A program made the translations under genes and the position numbers. The notes under the pieces are model-generated. The model was not told the origin of the DNA. It did not search any database and was given only the letters and a program-made list of their open reading frames with translations. DNA of 64,000 bases from Lineolata rhizophorae (taxonomy: Eukaryota; Ascomycota; Dothideomycetes; Lineolatales; Lineolataceae), in assembly GCA_010093515.1 (NCBI GenBank), contig MU001695.1, positions 274,157 to 338,156 of the forward strand. The letters run 5' to 3'. This document shows, piece by piece, positions 40,363-61,627 of the stretch. The stretch's first letter is position 1, and each line of letters begins with the position of its first letter.

Positions 40363-41632
40363 CTACTTCTTCTTCTTCTCCTCCTCCTCCTCCTCCTCCT
40401 CCTCTTGCTCCTCAACCCACCTCTCAAACTCCCTCCACTCCTCCTCCGGCATCGGATAGGTATGCTCCTTCCCCGGATACACCCTCTCCTTCACCTCGTC
40501 CCGATACCTCTCAATCGCCCTCAGCGCCTCCCCCCACACATCCCCATACTGCTTGACGAACTTGGGCAGCTTCCTCCCCGGCGGGAAGTTACCGGTCATG
40601 TCCACCTGCACCAGCACCTGGCCGGAGCACCCGGCCCCGGCCCCGATGCCGATGGTCGGCACGCGCAGCTTGCGCGTCACCGCGGCGGCCACCTCGGCCG
40701 GCACCGCCTCGAGCACGACGCCGAAGGCGCCGGCGTCCTGCACGGCCAGCGCGTCGGCCAGGACCGCCCTGGCGCCCTGGGCCGTCTTGCCCTGGACCCG
40801 GAAGCCGCCGAGGGCGTGCTGGCGCTGCGGCGTCAGGCCGACGTGGGCGAGGACGGGGATGCCGGCCGTGGTGATGGCGCGGATGGTGGGCGCGAGGGCG
40901 GCGCCGCCTTCGAGCTTGACGGCCGACATGCGGCCGGCTTTGACGAGGCGGATGGCCGAGGCGAGGGCTTGGGCGGGGGAGATTTCGTAGGAGCCCATGG
41001 GGAGGTCGCCGATCTGTTTGGTGGGTCGTCGTTAGCGATTGGGTTTTTTTTTTTTNNNNNNNNNNNNNNNNNNNNNNNNNNNNNNGGAGGGAGAAGCACG
41101 TATAGGCGCGCGACCCTTTTTGCGCCCGAACAAGAAGCCCAATTTGGGAAAGCAAATAAATAAATAAATAAATAAATAAATAACGCACCGTGAACACGCT
41201 GCGCGTGGCGCGCGCGACGCTCCGACAGTGCAGCTCCATGTCGGCCAGCGTCACCTCGGCCGTGTCGTCCATGCCCAGGGCCACCATGGCCAGGCTGTCG
41301 CCCACGAGCACGCAGTCGACGCCGGCCCGCTCGGCCACGTGCGCCGACGCGAAGTCGTGCGCCGTCACCATCACGATGGGCTCCCCGCGCGCCCGCTGCG
41401 CCGCCAGCGTCCCCACCGTCACCTTGCGCCGCGCCCCGCCCGCCGCCGGCGCCCCCAGCGGCGAGTGCGAGCTGCGCCGCGCTTGCGGGGCGTGCGCGGG
41501 AGCACCGCCGGGCGGGAACGGGGAGGCGGCGCCGGGGGCTGTCGGGCGCGGCGGCGAGGGCCGCGTCCGGCTGGTGGTGGTGGTGGTGAGGCGGCCGCAG
41601 CGGGCGAGGCGGAGGAGGTGGTGGTGGGACAT
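40363..41632 (-). CDS. Ketopantoate hydroxymethyltransferase (PanB), mitochondrial
   Basis: Two exons, 41189-41632 and 40363-41012/13, giving about 364 aa. The N-terminus from the ATG at 41632 is basic and Thr/Ser-rich (MSHHHLLRLARCGRLTTTTT), like a mitochondrial presequence. The enzyme core follows: VTVGTLAAQRARGEPIVMVTAHDF, the metal-site segment VLVGDSLAMVALG, the signature TLADMELHCRSVARA, then IGDLPMGSYEIS, VKLEGG, GHxGLTPQ-like AHVGLTPQR, and IGIGAGAGCSGQVLV. It forms ketopantoate from ketoisovalerate in vitamin B5 synthesis (family knowledge). The C-terminus is an acidic then basic run (poly-Glu/Lys). The intron contains a 30-N gap and a TTTA microsatellite, so its length is uncertain, but both splice sites (GTGCGT, AACAG) are visible. 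Confidence 0.92.
41056..41085. other. Assembly gap (30 N)
   Basis: A run of N inside the PanB intron, beside a T homopolymer on the + strand. Confidence 0.99.
41154..41183. repeat. AAAT microsatellite
   Basis: About seven tandem AAAT units in the PanB intron, directly next to the splice donor. Confidence 0.9.
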
Positions 41633-43000
41633 TTGGTCGCGGGGTTGGCTGGGCGGTCGCAGACGGAGGCGGGACGCGAGGCCTGGCGCGGCGGGACGGC
41701 GGTCACGCAGGGCGGCCGGTCCGGGGCGGGCGGACGAGTCGAGCGGCGGCGGCGGCGGCGGCGGCGGAGGCGGGGACGCGTTCGGCCACGGGGGGCGGAG
41801 AGAGAGGGACAGAGAGACAGAGAGAGATGACGGACCCATCTCGAGTCGGGACGCCGGCCGGCTATGTGCGTATCTAAGGGGGAAAGGGGCGGCAGGGGGA
41901 GGGGGAGAGAGAGGGCCGGCGCGCCGCCGCCCGAGTGCCGAGGCGGAGCGCCCGCGAGGAGGCGCGCAGGCTGAGGTTCGTGATGCTTTCTGCAGCGCAT
42001 TCGTGAGAACAGGGCGCTGGCGGTTTTGGCGGTCGGCGAGCGGGCGGGGCGGTCGGGCGGTCGGCGGACTGGCTGAGCGATCGCCGAGGCCGGCTGAGCC
42101 GGGGGCAGCTAGACAAGGCAAGTCGCGTCGCTGAGCAGTCAAGCGCAGCTGTTCGAGGTGCCGATGGTGATCTTTTTTTTTTTTCTTCCTTTTTGTTTCT
42201 TTCGGTCGTGGAGTTCGTGGGTTGGCTCTCTATTCGGGCGTATCTGCATGTGTTTGAGCGTCAATGGGGTGTTCTCCCAAGGCGAAGCACGTCGCGAGGA
42301 TGGGAACAGGACAATGATGGATTGGGTCTTGTTCGCTGTCAAGTCAATCAACAACAGAGAACAGTCCCGGCAGTCAACTCCCCACCGAAGCCATCACGGT
42401 GACCACAGCCGCTCTTAGCCCGCCCCGAGTACGCGGCCGTGGCACGGAACAGAGTGATGGGTCACCAAGATTCGGCCGATGCCTCACGTTCGACGTCAAC
42501 ATTTGTCAGCGTTTGCCGTATCACGGCATGCCAGGCAGATAGACGTGAGATTCAAGAGACGTCGAAGTGCAGAGTAATATGCGGCAGAACTGAACGACAA
42601 CGGCCCCTCCGCCAGCGGTATACGGCCCCACTCGAGCCCTTTGTAGCAGCGTCGATCCCGGTCCCACGCCGAAGCCCGCAAACGCGGACGCTCCACGTGA
42701 AAGAACAGAAGGCCCAACAAAGCCATGCGGCAGCCAGCCGCCACGAGCACAGAGGTTGCGGGCCCAGAGACACCGGCGTTGGCAGCACGGGGTTGGCCGT
42801 GCGGGCGTTGGCTGCGCGCCGTCCAGCGACCAACGTGCGGAGCCAGCCCAGCCGTAGCACGTAGTACGGGCCGGCCGTGGGTCGTGGCCCCTCGTGCCCC
42901 TCCACGGGTTATCTCGTCGCCGCCATCGTGAGAGCCGACGCGCATCATCTGCCCTCGGGCCCCGTCTTGCTCCAGGTTGCTCCGCTCCGCCTGCCCCTTT

Positions 43001-43043: not shown

Positions 43044-43634
43044 CCCCTGTCCCGCCTTCCTCGCTCTCTTACTTTCTCCTCGCCTCTCCGCCGCCATCGA
43101 AGCTTGTCTCCCGCCCGCCCCAGCTCAGCTTGCTCTGCGCCCTGCACCGGCGCAACGTCATCATCGCGTTCCCAACCCAAGCAAAGTCAGCTCGCGCGCT
43201 TACCCACGCCCCGGGGACGCTGCCGAACAAAGGTACTTCCGCCTGCGCGAGAGCGTCCGCCGGCCATTTCCCGTCCTTGCCTTCCGCCCTAGTTCCGCTG
43301 CATCCTTCGTCGTTGAGGACCTTCCTGAGCCCGCGCCGCTGGTTCCAGCCCCGGCGAGCAACAACACTAACAGGCGCCGGCAGGGACCGTTCCTTTTCTA
43401 ACTTCTCACAACGCCAGCTCTTATCCTCACAAAAAGCCGCCGGTACCGGCTCCCGGCCCACTCTTTTTCTCCTTGTGTTATTCTCCGTTTCTTTTTGATT
43501 GTGGAACCGCACACGCAAAGCCCAGCCCGCTTCAGTTTCGGCTGCCGCCGCCTTCACCGCAGAGAGCCGCGCCTCGAGAGTTTTAGTCACCAAACATCAA
43601 CAACGCAAACCAGCCCCCGCTTGCTGCAACCGCC

Positions 43635-43668
43635 GCCACCACCACCACCACCACCACCACCACCACCG
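43635..43668. repeat. CAC microsatellite
   Basis: About eleven CAC units roughly 90 nt upstream of the UBC8 ATG, probably in the leader. Confidence 0.9.
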
Positions 43669-43760: not shown

Positions 43761-45059
43761 ATGAGCAGTCCCAAGCGGAGGATCGAGACCGACGTGCGTA
43801 CATTGGCGACTTCGCTTTTGCTTCCTTTTTTGCCACTCCTGGGTTTCCGCTCTGTTAGGGACTATGGACGGAGTAGTCGGCTAACGGGATGATGGCCGTT
43901 CCCCTGGCCTTCGCCTCGCGCCAACAGGTTATGAAGTAGGTATCCAAAGGAGAAAGGAAGAAGGCCTGGAGGCTGGAGTCTCTTTTCTTTCAGCTGAAGG
44001 AGTTAAGGTCGCTTTTTGCTAATGTTTAACGTAGGATGTATGTCTTTTCCCGCCGGCGTCCTTCCTACTCGCCCCGCTGGACACAGCTTCGGTTGCAATG
44101 CTGATCCTTGAACAAGGTTGATGAGCGACTATGAGGTCACCCTGGTCAATGATAACAGTACGCTGTATCCTGCATCCTCCTTTGCAATATTTTCTGGGTT
44201 GTCTTCTTAGCCGCGGCTGACTAGGGTCACAGTGTCCGTCTACATCCTACCCCACCCGATCCCGCGCCATATACTTTTCCTAAGGAGCGCTTGCTGAACG
44301 GCTTTTTTAGGCAAGAGTTCTATGTTCGGTTCAAGGGACCCGAGGAGAGTACGTCACGCCGCTCCCCGGAGCCCAGGATAGTAACGGAGAACGCTGACAT
44401 TCTGGAAGCGCCATTTTCGGGCGGTCTATGGAAGATCCACGTCGAACTCCCCGACCAGTACCCCTACAAGAGCCCCTCGATCGGCTTCGTCAACCGAATC
44501 TTCCACCCGAACATTGACGAGCTGTGCGTACAACGCCCCCCCCTTCCCTCCGGAGCCCATCTCTCGTCGCGCGCGAACGCGTTCTGGAGCCACGTTTAAG
44601 GCTGACCGGGGTGGCCGGGGATTGCTTTTTGTAGATCCGGCTCCGTCTGCCTCGACGTCATCAACCAGACTTGGTCGCCCATGTACGACATGATCAACAT
44701 CTTCGAGGTCTTCCTGCCGCAGCTGCTGCGGTACCCGAACCCGACGGACCCGCTCAACGGCGAGGCGGCCGCGCTGCTCATGCGGGAGCCCAAGTCGTAT
44801 GATGCCAAAGTCAGGGGTACGCGTCGTTCTTCCCCTTACAGCCCTGTTTCATTTGTTTTCTTCTGAGTTCTACTTCTGCTCCTTGCGCCGCGCCCCGTGC
44901 TGACTCGATGCCGCGGCAGAATACGTCCAGAAGTATGCCAGTAAGGACGCGGCGGACGAGAACGGCGAGGACAGCGAGTCGGACGACGAGATGTCGAGCG
45001 TGGGGAGCTACGCGTCGGGAGAGGACGAGGAGCCGGCGGGCACCATGGAGGAGGTGTGA
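43761..45059 (+). CDS. UBC8: UBC8-type E2 ubiquitin-conjugating enzyme with three microexons
   Basis: Proposed nine exons: 43761-43793, 43928-43935 (8 nt), 44035-44037 (3 nt), 44117-44157, 44233 (1 nt), 44311-44348, 44409-44523, 44635-44816 and 44920-45059. The sum is 561 nt and 186 aa, in phase throughout. The protein starts [22 protein letters not shown] and continues [46 protein letters not shown], then [13 protein letters not shown] with the active-site Cys, and ends in an acidic tail. This matches yeast Ubc8 and human UBE2H, which ubiquitinate FBPase and other GID-type substrates (family knowledge). Without the single-nucleotide exon, the canonical GTACGC and TTTAG sites around 44158-44310 would break the frame. 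Several acceptors are AAG rather than YAG (44116, 44408). Confidence 0.85.
43936..44116 (+). other. UBC8: Split intron carrying a putative 3-nt exon (44035-44037)
   Basis: 43936-44034 (99 nt) runs from GTAGGT to GTAG with CTAAT upstream of the acceptor. The exon is GAT. 44038-44116 (79 nt) runs from GTATGT to AACAAG with a CTGAT site. The result is AAG ATG TTG, giving VMKMLMSD. Without it the protein would be one residue shorter but still in frame. Confidence 0.6.
44158..44310 (+). other. UBC8: Split intron carrying a putative 1-nt exon (44233)
   Basis: 44158-44232 (75 nt) runs from GTACGC to CACAG with a CTGAC branch-like site. One T (44233) follows. 44234-44310 (77 nt) runs from GTCCGT to TTTTTTAG with a CTGAA branch-like site. 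Joining A, T and G across the two introns gives the ATG codon for the conserved Met of NDNMQEF. Confidence 0.65.
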
Positions 45060-46524: not shown

Positions 46525-48613
46525 TCAGACCTTGTAGAAGCAGAAGGCGTGGTAGAAGCCTGGGCGGCGACGCTCGTTAGCACACGGCGGCTTTCGCGTC
46601 GCGGCCGCGCGGCGCGCGCGCGGGGAAAACAGAGAGGTGCTTGGAGAAGAAGGGGGTTGGGGGAGGAGGAGGAGGAGGGGAAAGGAACGGACTTGGGGGG
46701 AAGGGGGGGGAGGCGACTCACTGGCGGCGTCGAGCTCCTCCTTGGTGACGCGCAAGGGGCCGCGGTCGCGGTCGCGCACGCCCATGCGCTCGCTCAGGTC
46801 GCCCAGCACCCGGTCGTTCTTGTTGTCCTCCCAGATCTCGTTGAAGGGGCGGCGGTACTGGAGTTCGAGGTTGTAGTCCTCGGCCAGGCTGGCGGGGAGG
46901 AAGAACGGAGATTAGATGGTTCTCGAGGTTTTTCGGTAGGGGGAAAAAAGAAAAAAAGGAAGAGGGTCGGTGCTGCACTTACGCTCGGAACGCCTCCCAT
47001 GGCACCACGTACTCGGGCACCTCCTCGACGGCCTCCTCGAGGAAGTAAAAGTACTTCCAGCCGAAGGGCGGGCGGAAGACGCCGTCCTTGGGCGTCTGGC
47101 CCGGGAACCGCACCTTGTAGATGCTGTTCCCCCACTCGAGCACATTCTGCTGCTCGACCTCGCCGTCTTCCTTGTCCTTCTTCTCATCCTCGGCCGCATG
47201 CGCCGTTGGCGGAGGAGGAGGCTGCGCAGCCGCAGGCGGTGGCTCGTCGTCGACGTCCAAGCTCTTCTCCGGGTCCCAGTCGTCGTCCGAGTCGTACTCG
47301 GCCGGATTGGTGCTACTATTGCCCGCCTTGGCCCCAGCCTCGGCGCCATCCAGCTTCAAGTGGAAGGCCTCGACCTTCTCCGACAGCACGTCCGAGTTGG
47401 GTATGACGCCGAGGAAGCGGCCGCCCTTCTTGAGCGCCCCCGCCACGTTCTTGAGCATCCGCCGCGCCTTGTTCTCGCTCTCGAAGGCGTAGTGCATGCA
47501 GAACATCATGCTGACGACGTCGAAGCCGCCGCCGCCGGTCCAGCGAGTCGGGGCGCCGCCGGGGCCGGCCGTGGGGTCGAAACCGACCTCGCGGATGACG
47601 GGAATGTCGTCGAGGGACTCGCCGAAGCAGTCCTTGACCAGGAAGCGGCCCTCGAAGAGGCGTCGTTGGTGGTGGCGGCGGTTGTTGTTGTTATGCTGGT
47701 TGCGCGGCGTCATGCCGCGATAACGGTCGCGGGCCTGCTCGATGGAGATCTCGGCCGGGTCGAGCCCGACGTACAGATCCACGATGGCCGGGCAGCTCTG
47801 CCACTTCTGCAGATCGCCTCCCTTGCCGCACCCAATATCCAGGACCAAGATGTGCGGTTTCGGCGGCGCGCCCGCGCCCCAACCGTAGTCGTAACCTCCC
47901 CTTTCATGCTGATATTGATGCTGCTGCCGCCCGACCAGATCGCCCTGCGCATCACCGGCCGCGAACTTCTGGATCAGCGCGCTCTTGCACCAGTTGTTGA
48001 AGGAGCGCAGGCCCTTGATCTTGCTGTCCGTCCGCCGCCACTCCTTGCCCCGCTGCGGCACGTTGTTGTAGTGCTGCCGCACCGCGTCGTGCACGCCGCG
48101 CGCGCGCAGCGCCTCACGCCGCTCCTCCTCGCGCCGCGCCTGCCGCGCCGCGATCGAGTCTGCCACTGCCGTCGCCGCCGCCGCCGCCGTCGTCGTCGCC
48201 GGCGCGTGGCCCGCGACGCCCGCGGGCCCGCCCGCCGGACTCGCCGAGCTGCCGGGCCCGACGCTGGCCCCGACGGGGGCTCCTTCGCGGCCGACGCGCG
48301 CCGTCGCGCCGGGGCGCTTGCGTTTGCGTGGCGGCGAACGGGACCGCGAGCGAGACCGCGAGCGCGGCGGCGAGGGCGAGCGCGGACGCGAGGTCTGCGG
48401 CGGCGGGCGCCCCGCGAAGCCGGTCTTGTGCTCGGCAGGGGAGGCGCGGTACTTTGTGGGCGGTGAGGATTGGTTCTTTGCGGCGGAAGAGCCCGGACGA
48501 TGAGGGGTCTTAGTTGAGGCTGTTGCAGAGGAAGGAGGAGGGTTGGGGGACGTGGGCGTGCCGAGACGGCGCTTTTTGGGGTTGGGATCCATGGGCGGGG
48601 ATTCGGAAGGCAT
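46525..48613 (-). CDS. ABD1: mRNA cap guanine-N7 methyltransferase
   Basis: Three exons, 46983-48613, 46722-46888 and 46525-46559, giving 610 aa. The N-terminal 170 residues are disordered and Ser/Arg/Pro-rich (RSRSRSRSRS). The catalytic part begins with YNNVPQRGKEWRRTDSKIKGLRSFNNWCKSALI, then the SAM-binding motif VLDIGCGKGGDLQKW, VGLDPAEISIEQA, FDVVSMMFCMHYAFES and the C-terminal FYHAFCFYKV. It methylates the guanine cap of nascent mRNA in the nucleus (family knowledge). An acidic Pro/Ala-rich insert (about 440-490) sits between the SAM fold and the end, as in other filamentous fungi. The start is MPSESPPMDPNPKKRR; the second Met (48592) is an alternative. The gene is divergent from RPN7 across 392 bp. 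Confidence 0.94.
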
Positions 48614-49005
48614 TTGGTGTTTGGAGTAGTTACGCGGATTCGAAAGGAAATAAGGTTGGTTGTGGGTTCTTTGTTGTCGTGAAGGTTGAAGGGGCAAAGT
48701 CGAAAGACGCGTGAGAGCAGCGGAGGTCTTAAGCTCGGCGAGCACGCGGCTACGTGTGGCGCAGGCGGCGGGCGGTGTGGCTGGAGCTGCAGCTTCCGCC
48801 CCTGCCCCTGCCTTGCGCTTCTAAGCGCAGAGCCGCTGTCCACGTCCGACAGCACCTCACTCTTCGCACCTCAACACGCTACGTCCGCATCCCACAACCT
48901 TTCCGCAGTCCTATTTCGACCTCCTTGTTCTTTTTCACCCATCCCTTCCTTCCAAAAGGGCCCGCCCGTCAGGTCGCTGCCGTCCGCAGCCAAACAGCAC
49001 CCACC
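48614..49005. promoter_or_regulatory. Bidirectional promoter ABD1/RPN7
   Basis: 392 bp separate the two divergent start codons, so both genes must share this promoter region. A CT-rich stretch (48895-48965) lies just upstream of the RPN7 ATG. No TATA box is evident. Confidence 0.6.
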
Positions 49006-60986: not shown

Positions 60987-61627
60987 GGTCGGGTTTGGGG
61001 CTCTCCGGTCGGGTCTGACGGGTAACCGCGCCCGAGACCGTGGTATCGAGACGTTGGACCCACGGGCTTGGGGATTTTTAGATGGGTTGAATTTCTGGGT
61101 GTCTGGGACACATGCATGCATGGACGACGTAATGATTAATTCCATATAACCGAAGGCCAAGCGAAGGCTCGAGCAATCGTTTCGATATCCATTCGATCAA
61201 GTCTTGCGAATAAGTCTACAGCAAAACGGCCCGAACCCGGTTCTAAACGGTGAAAAAAAAAAGCCATTTTTTATAATCCCAATTCCAATCCCGTGGATCG
61301 GTCCACATGCAAATCGATGACTTTATCCGTGCGGGGCTTTTGTGAACAAATTTCCCATTTAGGTAAGAACGCATAAGCGGCCAGGGTATACAGGATTCGA
61401 AAAAGGTCTAAGAACACCGGCAAAAACGTCCCATCTATCAAAAAAAAAAAGCCCAACTCTTCAATCTAGCAACACCAGTGTCCATATACCCCCCTAAACT
61501 CCAGGCCCAGACCCAAAAACGAAACCACAAAGGCGAACAGAAAGGAAAATGCAACCCCTTACACACCCGCCGCATCCNNNNNNNNNNNNNNNNNNNNNNN
61601 NNNNNNNNNNNNNNNNNNNNNNNNNNN
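60987..61627. other. Intergenic, convergent 3' flanks and gap
   Basis: 3' flanks of the methyltransferase and DUG2. An assembly gap at 61578-61627 hides the end of DUG2. Nothing else is recognised. Confidence 0.5.
61578..61627. other. Assembly gap (50 N)
   Basis: A run of N that removes the last codons of DUG2. Its true length is unknown, so the frame beyond it cannot be trusted. Confidence 0.99.

Follow-up and report, generated by a model that had tools for sequence, protein, structure and literature searches.

A probable one-nucleotide exon in the UBC8 gene of Lineolata rhizophorae and its trace in the proteins of other Pezizomycotina

The T at position 44233 of the window (the whole stretch of 64,000 nucleotides of Lineolata rhizophorae DNA analysed here) is very probably a fungal exon of one nucleotide, unusually widespread for its kind and new in UBC8, with exons of 3 and 8 nt as its neighbours. 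We hold it highly likely that codon 29 of this gene is split over three exons with the T in the middle, that the two introns around it would be removed sequentially, and that the arrangement is old and conserved.

Gene structure, reading frame and competing splice solutions

A UBC8/UBE2H-type E2 gene occupies 43761-45059 on the plus strand, and its nine exons encode a product of 186 residues. In a profile search the Pfam family UQ_con matches this product at 135 bits; among PDB entries, yeast Ubc8 (8pmq, over query residues 1-177) and UBE2H (8pjn, 2z5d) match it best, and these matches identify the predicted product as a Ubc8/UBE2H-type E2, the fungal counterpart. The parts of the gene are as follows.

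43761..43793, plus strand: exon 1, 33 nt coding, in agreement with yeast Ubc8
43794..43927, plus strand: intron 1, 134 nt, GTGCGT...CAACAG
43928..43935, plus strand: exon 2, 8-nt microexon GTTATGAA, encoding V, M and two bases of K
43936..44034, plus strand: intron 2, 99 nt, GTAGGT...GCTAAT...CGTAG
44035..44037, plus strand: exon 3, 3-nt microexon GAT, the third base of K14 and the first two of M15
44038..44116, plus strand: intron 3, 79 nt, GTATGT...CTGAT...ACAAG
44117..44157, plus strand: exon 4, 41 nt, with the 3' end GTCAATGATAACA (AACA), the last base being the first of the putative M29 codon
44158..44232, plus strand: intron 4, 75 nt, donor GTACGC, branch-like CTGAC, acceptor CACAG
44233..44233, plus strand: exon 5, putative one-nucleotide exon T, second base of the M29 codon
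44234..44310, plus strand: intron 5, 77 nt, weak donor GTCCGT, branch-like CTGAA, acceptor TTTTTTAG
44311..44348, plus strand: exon 6, 38 nt, starting GCAAGAGTTC, its initial G being the third base of the putative M29 codon
44349..44408, plus strand: intron 6, 60 nt, ordinary; control junction J6
44409..44523, plus strand: exon 7, 115 nt
44524..44634, plus strand: intron 7, 111 nt; control junction J7
44635..44816, plus strand: exon 8, 182 nt, containing SGSVCLDV
44817..44919, plus strand: intron 8, 103 nt; control junction J8
44920..45059, plus strand: exon 9, 140 nt, with the acidic C-terminal tail and the TGA stop at 45057-45059

We take the Cys of SGSVCLDV to be the E2 active site. The 8-nt and 3-nt exons are additional to what an earlier sequence-only reading of this DNA had described; omission of the 3-nt exon, which lies between CGTAG and GTATGT, keeps the frame and loses the second M of VMKML.

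That reading had placed a lone T between CACAG and GTCCGT, and its coordinates proved exact: the boundaries at 44158, 44232, 44234 and 44310 were reproduced, the single base sits within CACAG-T-GTCCGT (44228-44239), and the introns on both sides have the ordinary sizes of 75 and 77 nt that it gave, each with its own branch-like site and acceptor (CTGAC with CACAG in intron 4, CTGAA with TTTTTTAG in intron 5). Its further claim, that NDN joined directly to QEF is off frame, held as well, in that no single intron keeps the frame without altering the protein. With the T, ATG is completed, the frame is restored and the protein reads NDN-M-QEF, placing a Met at the yeast Ubc8 position as had been said; yeast Ubc8 (8pmq) reads NDSMQEF across this junction. 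If exon 4 is joined directly to exon 6, the frame shifts and a stop soon follows; the conserved E2 would therefore require inclusion of the T. A cDNA with the ATG formed by T inclusion would read AACATGCAAGAG, and the join lacking the T would read AACAGTACGCAAGAG. Retention of either intron 4 or intron 5 leads to a stop in this species.

The chance of such a pattern was estimated from 5000 dinucleotide-preserving shuffles of the 153-nt interval, with six bases kept at each end and AG-N-GT counted where both introns were at least about 45 nt. Some one-nucleotide exon appeared in 10.1% of the 5000 shuffles, a T-type one in 2.46%, and a T exon whose two acceptors are both preceded by a CTRAH branch-like site in 2/5000 (0.04%). 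By itself, then, AG-T-GT would be only a mild surprise, and the weight of the argument is carried by the comparison across species. Enumeration of the in-frame solutions, with internal exons up to 30 nt, showed that the interval holds rivals to the T: the G at 44225, which yields R, two longer exons of 7 and 13 nt that start at 44225 as well, and several joins by a single intron. Because these alternatives exist, the sequence alone is not decisive.

Donor strength was scored in three runs of a model built on some 31-36 introns inferred in this genome, with the UBC8 region left out, a small and unsupervised sample. By this model GTCCGT, at the start of intron 5, is a weak donor: a C in position +3 accounts for 0.8-1.8% of the weight, and just 4.5-8.5% of the introns have a score that low. 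For GTACGC, the stronger donor of intron 4, the corresponding share is 18.9-27.9%. A smaller model (about 14 introns, UBC8 region included) rated GTCCGT equal to GTACGC; we rely on the less favourable result, that GTCCGT is weak, over this second one.

Three related arrangements were considered and set aside. Fungal stwintrons resemble the present case in having two U2 introns at one position with stepwise removal, but a stwintron leaves no base, whereas here the first intron begins A|GT and not G|GT ([D1,2]) and the T would stay; the G|GT is missing at the first donor, and when the T is omitted, the join either loses the frame or changes the protein. An acceptor-split stwintron with 44232-44310 as its internal intron is out of frame by arithmetic. 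Recursive splice sites of long animal introns, also mentioned in PMC4674806, have acceptor and donor back to back, with zero-length exons; sequential removal would be common to both, but here the introns are short and one coding base would stay, a T separating AG and GT at 44233.

Homologous proteins at codon 29

Three protein searches, with the best 120 of more than 4600 matches taken from each, gave 240 distinct homologues, which were split by source into 182 proteins from annotated genomes (two plant rows dropped) and 56 proteins from short contigs without an NCBI source. The short-contig proteins are uninterrupted open reading frames on contigs mostly of about 0.9-3 kb (the largest 7.3 kb, one without a length), and for this reason they are probably mostly cDNA. 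Two of the three search queries had aberrant junctions, which could favour aberrant relatives and bias the sample, so the count was repeated on the search with the Met query alone.

An indel at most 3 residues from codon 29 was present in 145 of the 182 listed annotated homologues, which are phylogenetically non-independent, and one at most 3 residues from the 3-nt exon in 118. The same 182 proteins had indels in 7 (J6), 3 (J7) and 4 (J8) cases at the control junctions and in none at four non-junction sites; J1 had 27, in a range shared in part with the 3-nt exon. By contrast, codon 29 was free of indels in the listed short-contig proteins (0/56), all of which have a plain Met there (56/56), and none of the 50 that cover the 3-nt exon had an indel at it, in a set that is not free of noise given J7 indels in 4/56. 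Only the T, among the enumerated solutions, yields the Met of these 56 proteins, and the one-nucleotide exon put forward in the sequence-only reading gains support from this. At J7 (44523/44635), the short-contig proteins P0004 and P0016 read DESGS without the L and are one residue short, perhaps through alternative acceptors.

Repeated on the Met-query search alone, the count gave indels at codon 29 in 48 of 69 listed proteins, at the 3-nt exon in 30/69, at J1 in 4/69, at J6 in 1/69 and at J7 and J8 in 0/69 each. Over the full set, plain Met at codon 29 was found in 21 of the 182 listed annotated models (P0151 included) and was missing from 161; the 21 may be evidence-based models, cases of intron loss or luck.

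Nearest pairs of short-contig and annotated proteins were ranked by C-terminal similarity, and the best 30 were inspected. Four pairs have 100% identity over 139-141 C-terminal columns, a conserved region in which identity is not proof of the same species: P0003/P0054 (SMRSPQM), P0159/P0142 (TPFLP...), P0011/P0051 (KFYV) and P0009/P0100 (MYVV...). The short-contig member has Met in all four and the annotated model does not. At 99% or more (eight pairs among the best 30), the annotated partner was aberrant in six and had Met in two (P0059, P0122).

Aberrant gene models and rival readings

Error classes were assigned by a parser over the 182 listed annotated proteins. Insertions beginning with S, as if the first donor had been translated, made up 41; the next-AG type K-F[YF]V, 20; a donor moved by 4 bases, with S and one of K, T, M, E, G and R ahead of QEF, 19; M followed by other residues, 19; plain M, 19 (21 after the hand recount mentioned in the totals above); R at codon 29, 5; and a class of others, 25 (with P0111 among them, which is really plain Met). 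The remaining 34 were unparsed. Many of these errors look like escapes of gene finders from a one-nucleotide exon.

Models that read through the T are informative about the DNA behind them, as a T followed by an intron starting with GT requires that the next codon start with T. The motif V[N/H]DN was present in 154 of the 182 listed annotated homologues, and in 26 of these 154 NDN-M was not continued by QEF or SEF. The next residue was Y in 20, F in 3 and S in 1, so that 24 of the 26 read-throughs fit T|GT, with a T-initial codon certain for Y and F and possible for S; the two that do not fit have H (P0043) and P (P0216). For comparison, F and Y together make up 4.6% of the residues when the window is translated in all six frames. 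V was the third residue in 17/26, as T|GTNNGT demands, and the read-through of the window itself would be M-S-V, as in Septoria linicola P0068. The 3-nt exon left similar marks among the 182 listed annotated homologues: 53 are one residue short there, and 18 have KM[YFSC], as GAT|GT demands. The UBC8 proteins of many moulds in the database appear to be wrong at codon 29, probably because gene finders miss the one-nucleotide exon.

These counts also bear on the possibility that a base was lost by an error of sequencing or assembly and that the true gene is interrupted here by one intron of about 150 nt. The interval beside the acceptor does contain a T homopolymer, but independent errors could hardly explain a disruption of codon 29 in 145 of 182 listed models from many genera, and the T|GT boundary fits 24 of the 26 read-throughs; we give this explanation next to no chance.

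Somewhat more serious, though still very unlikely in our judgement, is one long intron with a shifted donor, either 44162-44310 (GC-AG, NDN-ST-QEF) or 44165-44310 (GTATCC, NDN-STL-QEF), in which case the extra residues would be tolerated and no microexon would exist. Both introns are in frame without stops, and the models of other species in the 4-base-shift class (19/182 listed), Cenococcum with NDN-ST-QEF included, resemble the first of them; the donor GTATCC even scored slightly above GTCCGT in one of the three donor-model runs. It scored below GTCCGT in the other two, however, and with either of these introns the conserved Met would be lost. GCTGTA is a poor GC donor by consensus, which counts against the GC-AG form. 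The inserted residue, moreover, varies between K, T, M, E, G and R from model to model, as an artefact would, and all 56 listed short-contig proteins have a single Met.

A second base could in principle form the exon. The G at 44225, in GACTAG|G|GTCACA, is in frame and would give A+G+G, AGG, and NDN-R-QEF, and R does occur in 5/182 listed annotated models. Against it, GTCACA scored far under GTCCGT in all three runs and was the lowest of the donors compared, the branch-like A precedes its acceptor by only about 4 nt, and R is seen in 0/56 listed short-contig proteins, M29 in 56/56, which leaves this G a most improbable exon. Use of the next acceptor (44158-44315) would give NDN-KFYV, with Lys in place of Met-Gln-Glu; that join, too, is in frame and has parallels in 20/182 listed annotated models. 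It would remove conserved residues, no indel at codon 29 is seen among the 56 listed short-contig proteins, and over 139 C-terminal columns the Met-bearing short-contig protein P0011 does not differ from P0051, the Penicillium model with KFYV; we regard this join as close to negligible.

Order of splicing, breadth and known counterparts

With the T as exon 5, the ATG of codon 29 would take its A from the end of exon 4, its T from exon 5 and its G from the beginning of exon 6. Introns 4 and 5, which each have a donor, a branch-like site and an acceptor to themselves, would be removed one after another; CACAG and GTCCGT are one base apart, which makes two spliceosomes there together unlikely and the removals, in consequence, presumably sequential. 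Whichever intron went out first, a usable site would remain for the other. For fungal introns of such length, intron definition is the accepted mode of recognition. From the base pattern, the need of the frame and the protein comparison we infer that the T is used in splicing and that the two removals follow each other.

Constitutive inclusion of the T is the simplest reading, and regulation is possible. A bolder proposal would have the one-nucleotide and 3-nt exons kept since before the split of the classes, the former as the most widely conserved one-nucleotide exon known outside plants, and persisting because T inclusion is regulated and sets the level of Ubc8; we consider this whole doubtful. 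Under it, an mRNA without the T would be out of frame, so that splicing efficiency would set the Ubc8 level, and the activity of the GID/CTLH pathway would presumably follow.

Searches for orthologue DNA gave no match in viral contigs and only three prokaryotic E2-like loci in genome contigs, and no UQ_con match was found in 14 control genomes; conservation was therefore read from proteins, and at the DNA level it is a conjecture from them. A T|GT boundary is readable in Dothideomycetes (Coniosporium, Septoria), Sordariomycetes (Beauveria), Eurotiomycetes (Aspergillus), Lecanoromycetes (Lasallia) and Coniocybomycetes (Sclerophora), and Tuber (Pezizomycetes) has an apparent 4-base shift, SE. 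Being traceable in database proteins of at least five classes of Pezizomycotina, the arrangement would be an old one, and we infer that the exon arose before those classes split. It is very probably real and widely conserved in Pezizomycotina, as judged from these proteins. None of the best 120 of more than 4600 matches of the first search is marked as the window's own protein or as identical to it. The earlier suggestion that the related fungi are Sordariomycetes was not borne out: in a tree on residues 36-186 of this one protein, the window's E2 groups with those of Coniosporium (Dothideomycetes; P0018 and P0080) with a group support of 0.94, which makes a dothideomycete host probable.

One-nucleotide exons had been described in the sequence-only reading as known from one plant gene; the occurrence in plants stands, but the number was too low, since both APC11 and VPS55 are known, and Fusarium CYP621A has to be added. 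PMC4674806 describes a constitutive one-nucleotide exon in Arabidopsis APC11, within a 422-nt stretch annotated as one intron, for which reporter constructs were tested in 2015. According to PMC8831610, the one-nucleotide exons of APC11 and VPS55 are well conserved in land plants, that of VPS55 being variable, and were missed by annotation. The present case differs from these two in gene and lineage, in its fungal introns under 80 nt and in the 3- and 8-nt exons upstream. In PMC12940212 (2026), the one-nucleotide exon of the Fusarium P450 gene CYP621A is a G, shared by 20 orthologues, rarely expressed and confirmed by RNA reads; it lies in an apparent intron of 139 nt in F. graminearum, most database models are wrong there, and the authors count it as the second such exon on record and as the first for a fungal gene. 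The UBC8 exon would resemble it in being one base between AG and GT, in a nuclear gene of a fungus, that is needed for the frame of a conserved motif; in both, database models are mostly wrong at the site. Unlike that of CYP621A, it is a T in a conserved E2 gene, has left a trace in at least five classes and is predicted from sequence. Among the papers listed, with subscription titles largely outside the scope, none describes a microexon in the UBC8 of a fungus.

Should transcripts confirm the T, the smallest possible exon would be more than an oddity of some plant genes and a single Fusarium P450: many filamentous ascomycetes would have it in the gene of a conserved enzyme, and its AG-T-GT core would offer numerous natural variants, in fungi amenable to experiment, for studying how the spliceosome copes with an acceptor and a donor one base apart. 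Most of the listed UBC8 records appear wrong at one or two codons, which suggests their use as a benchmark for gene finders and aligners.

As to the surroundings of the gene, a tRNA scan of the window found none, and runs of N lie at 41056-41085 and 61578-61627. A locus elsewhere in the genome (C13) that shares an exon boundary with UBC8 resembles another E2 and was rejected as a second UBC8. On the minus strand, the open reading frames at 40592-42142 and 46979-48745 near UBC8 match ketopantoate hydroxymethyltransferase and mRNA cap guanine-N7 methyltransferase, respectively. A CCG/CCA-type trinucleotide run of mostly ACC repeats spans 43630-43667, ahead of the UBC8 start and presumably within the 5' leader, and the 12-mer CACAGTGTCCGT has three occurrences in the genome.
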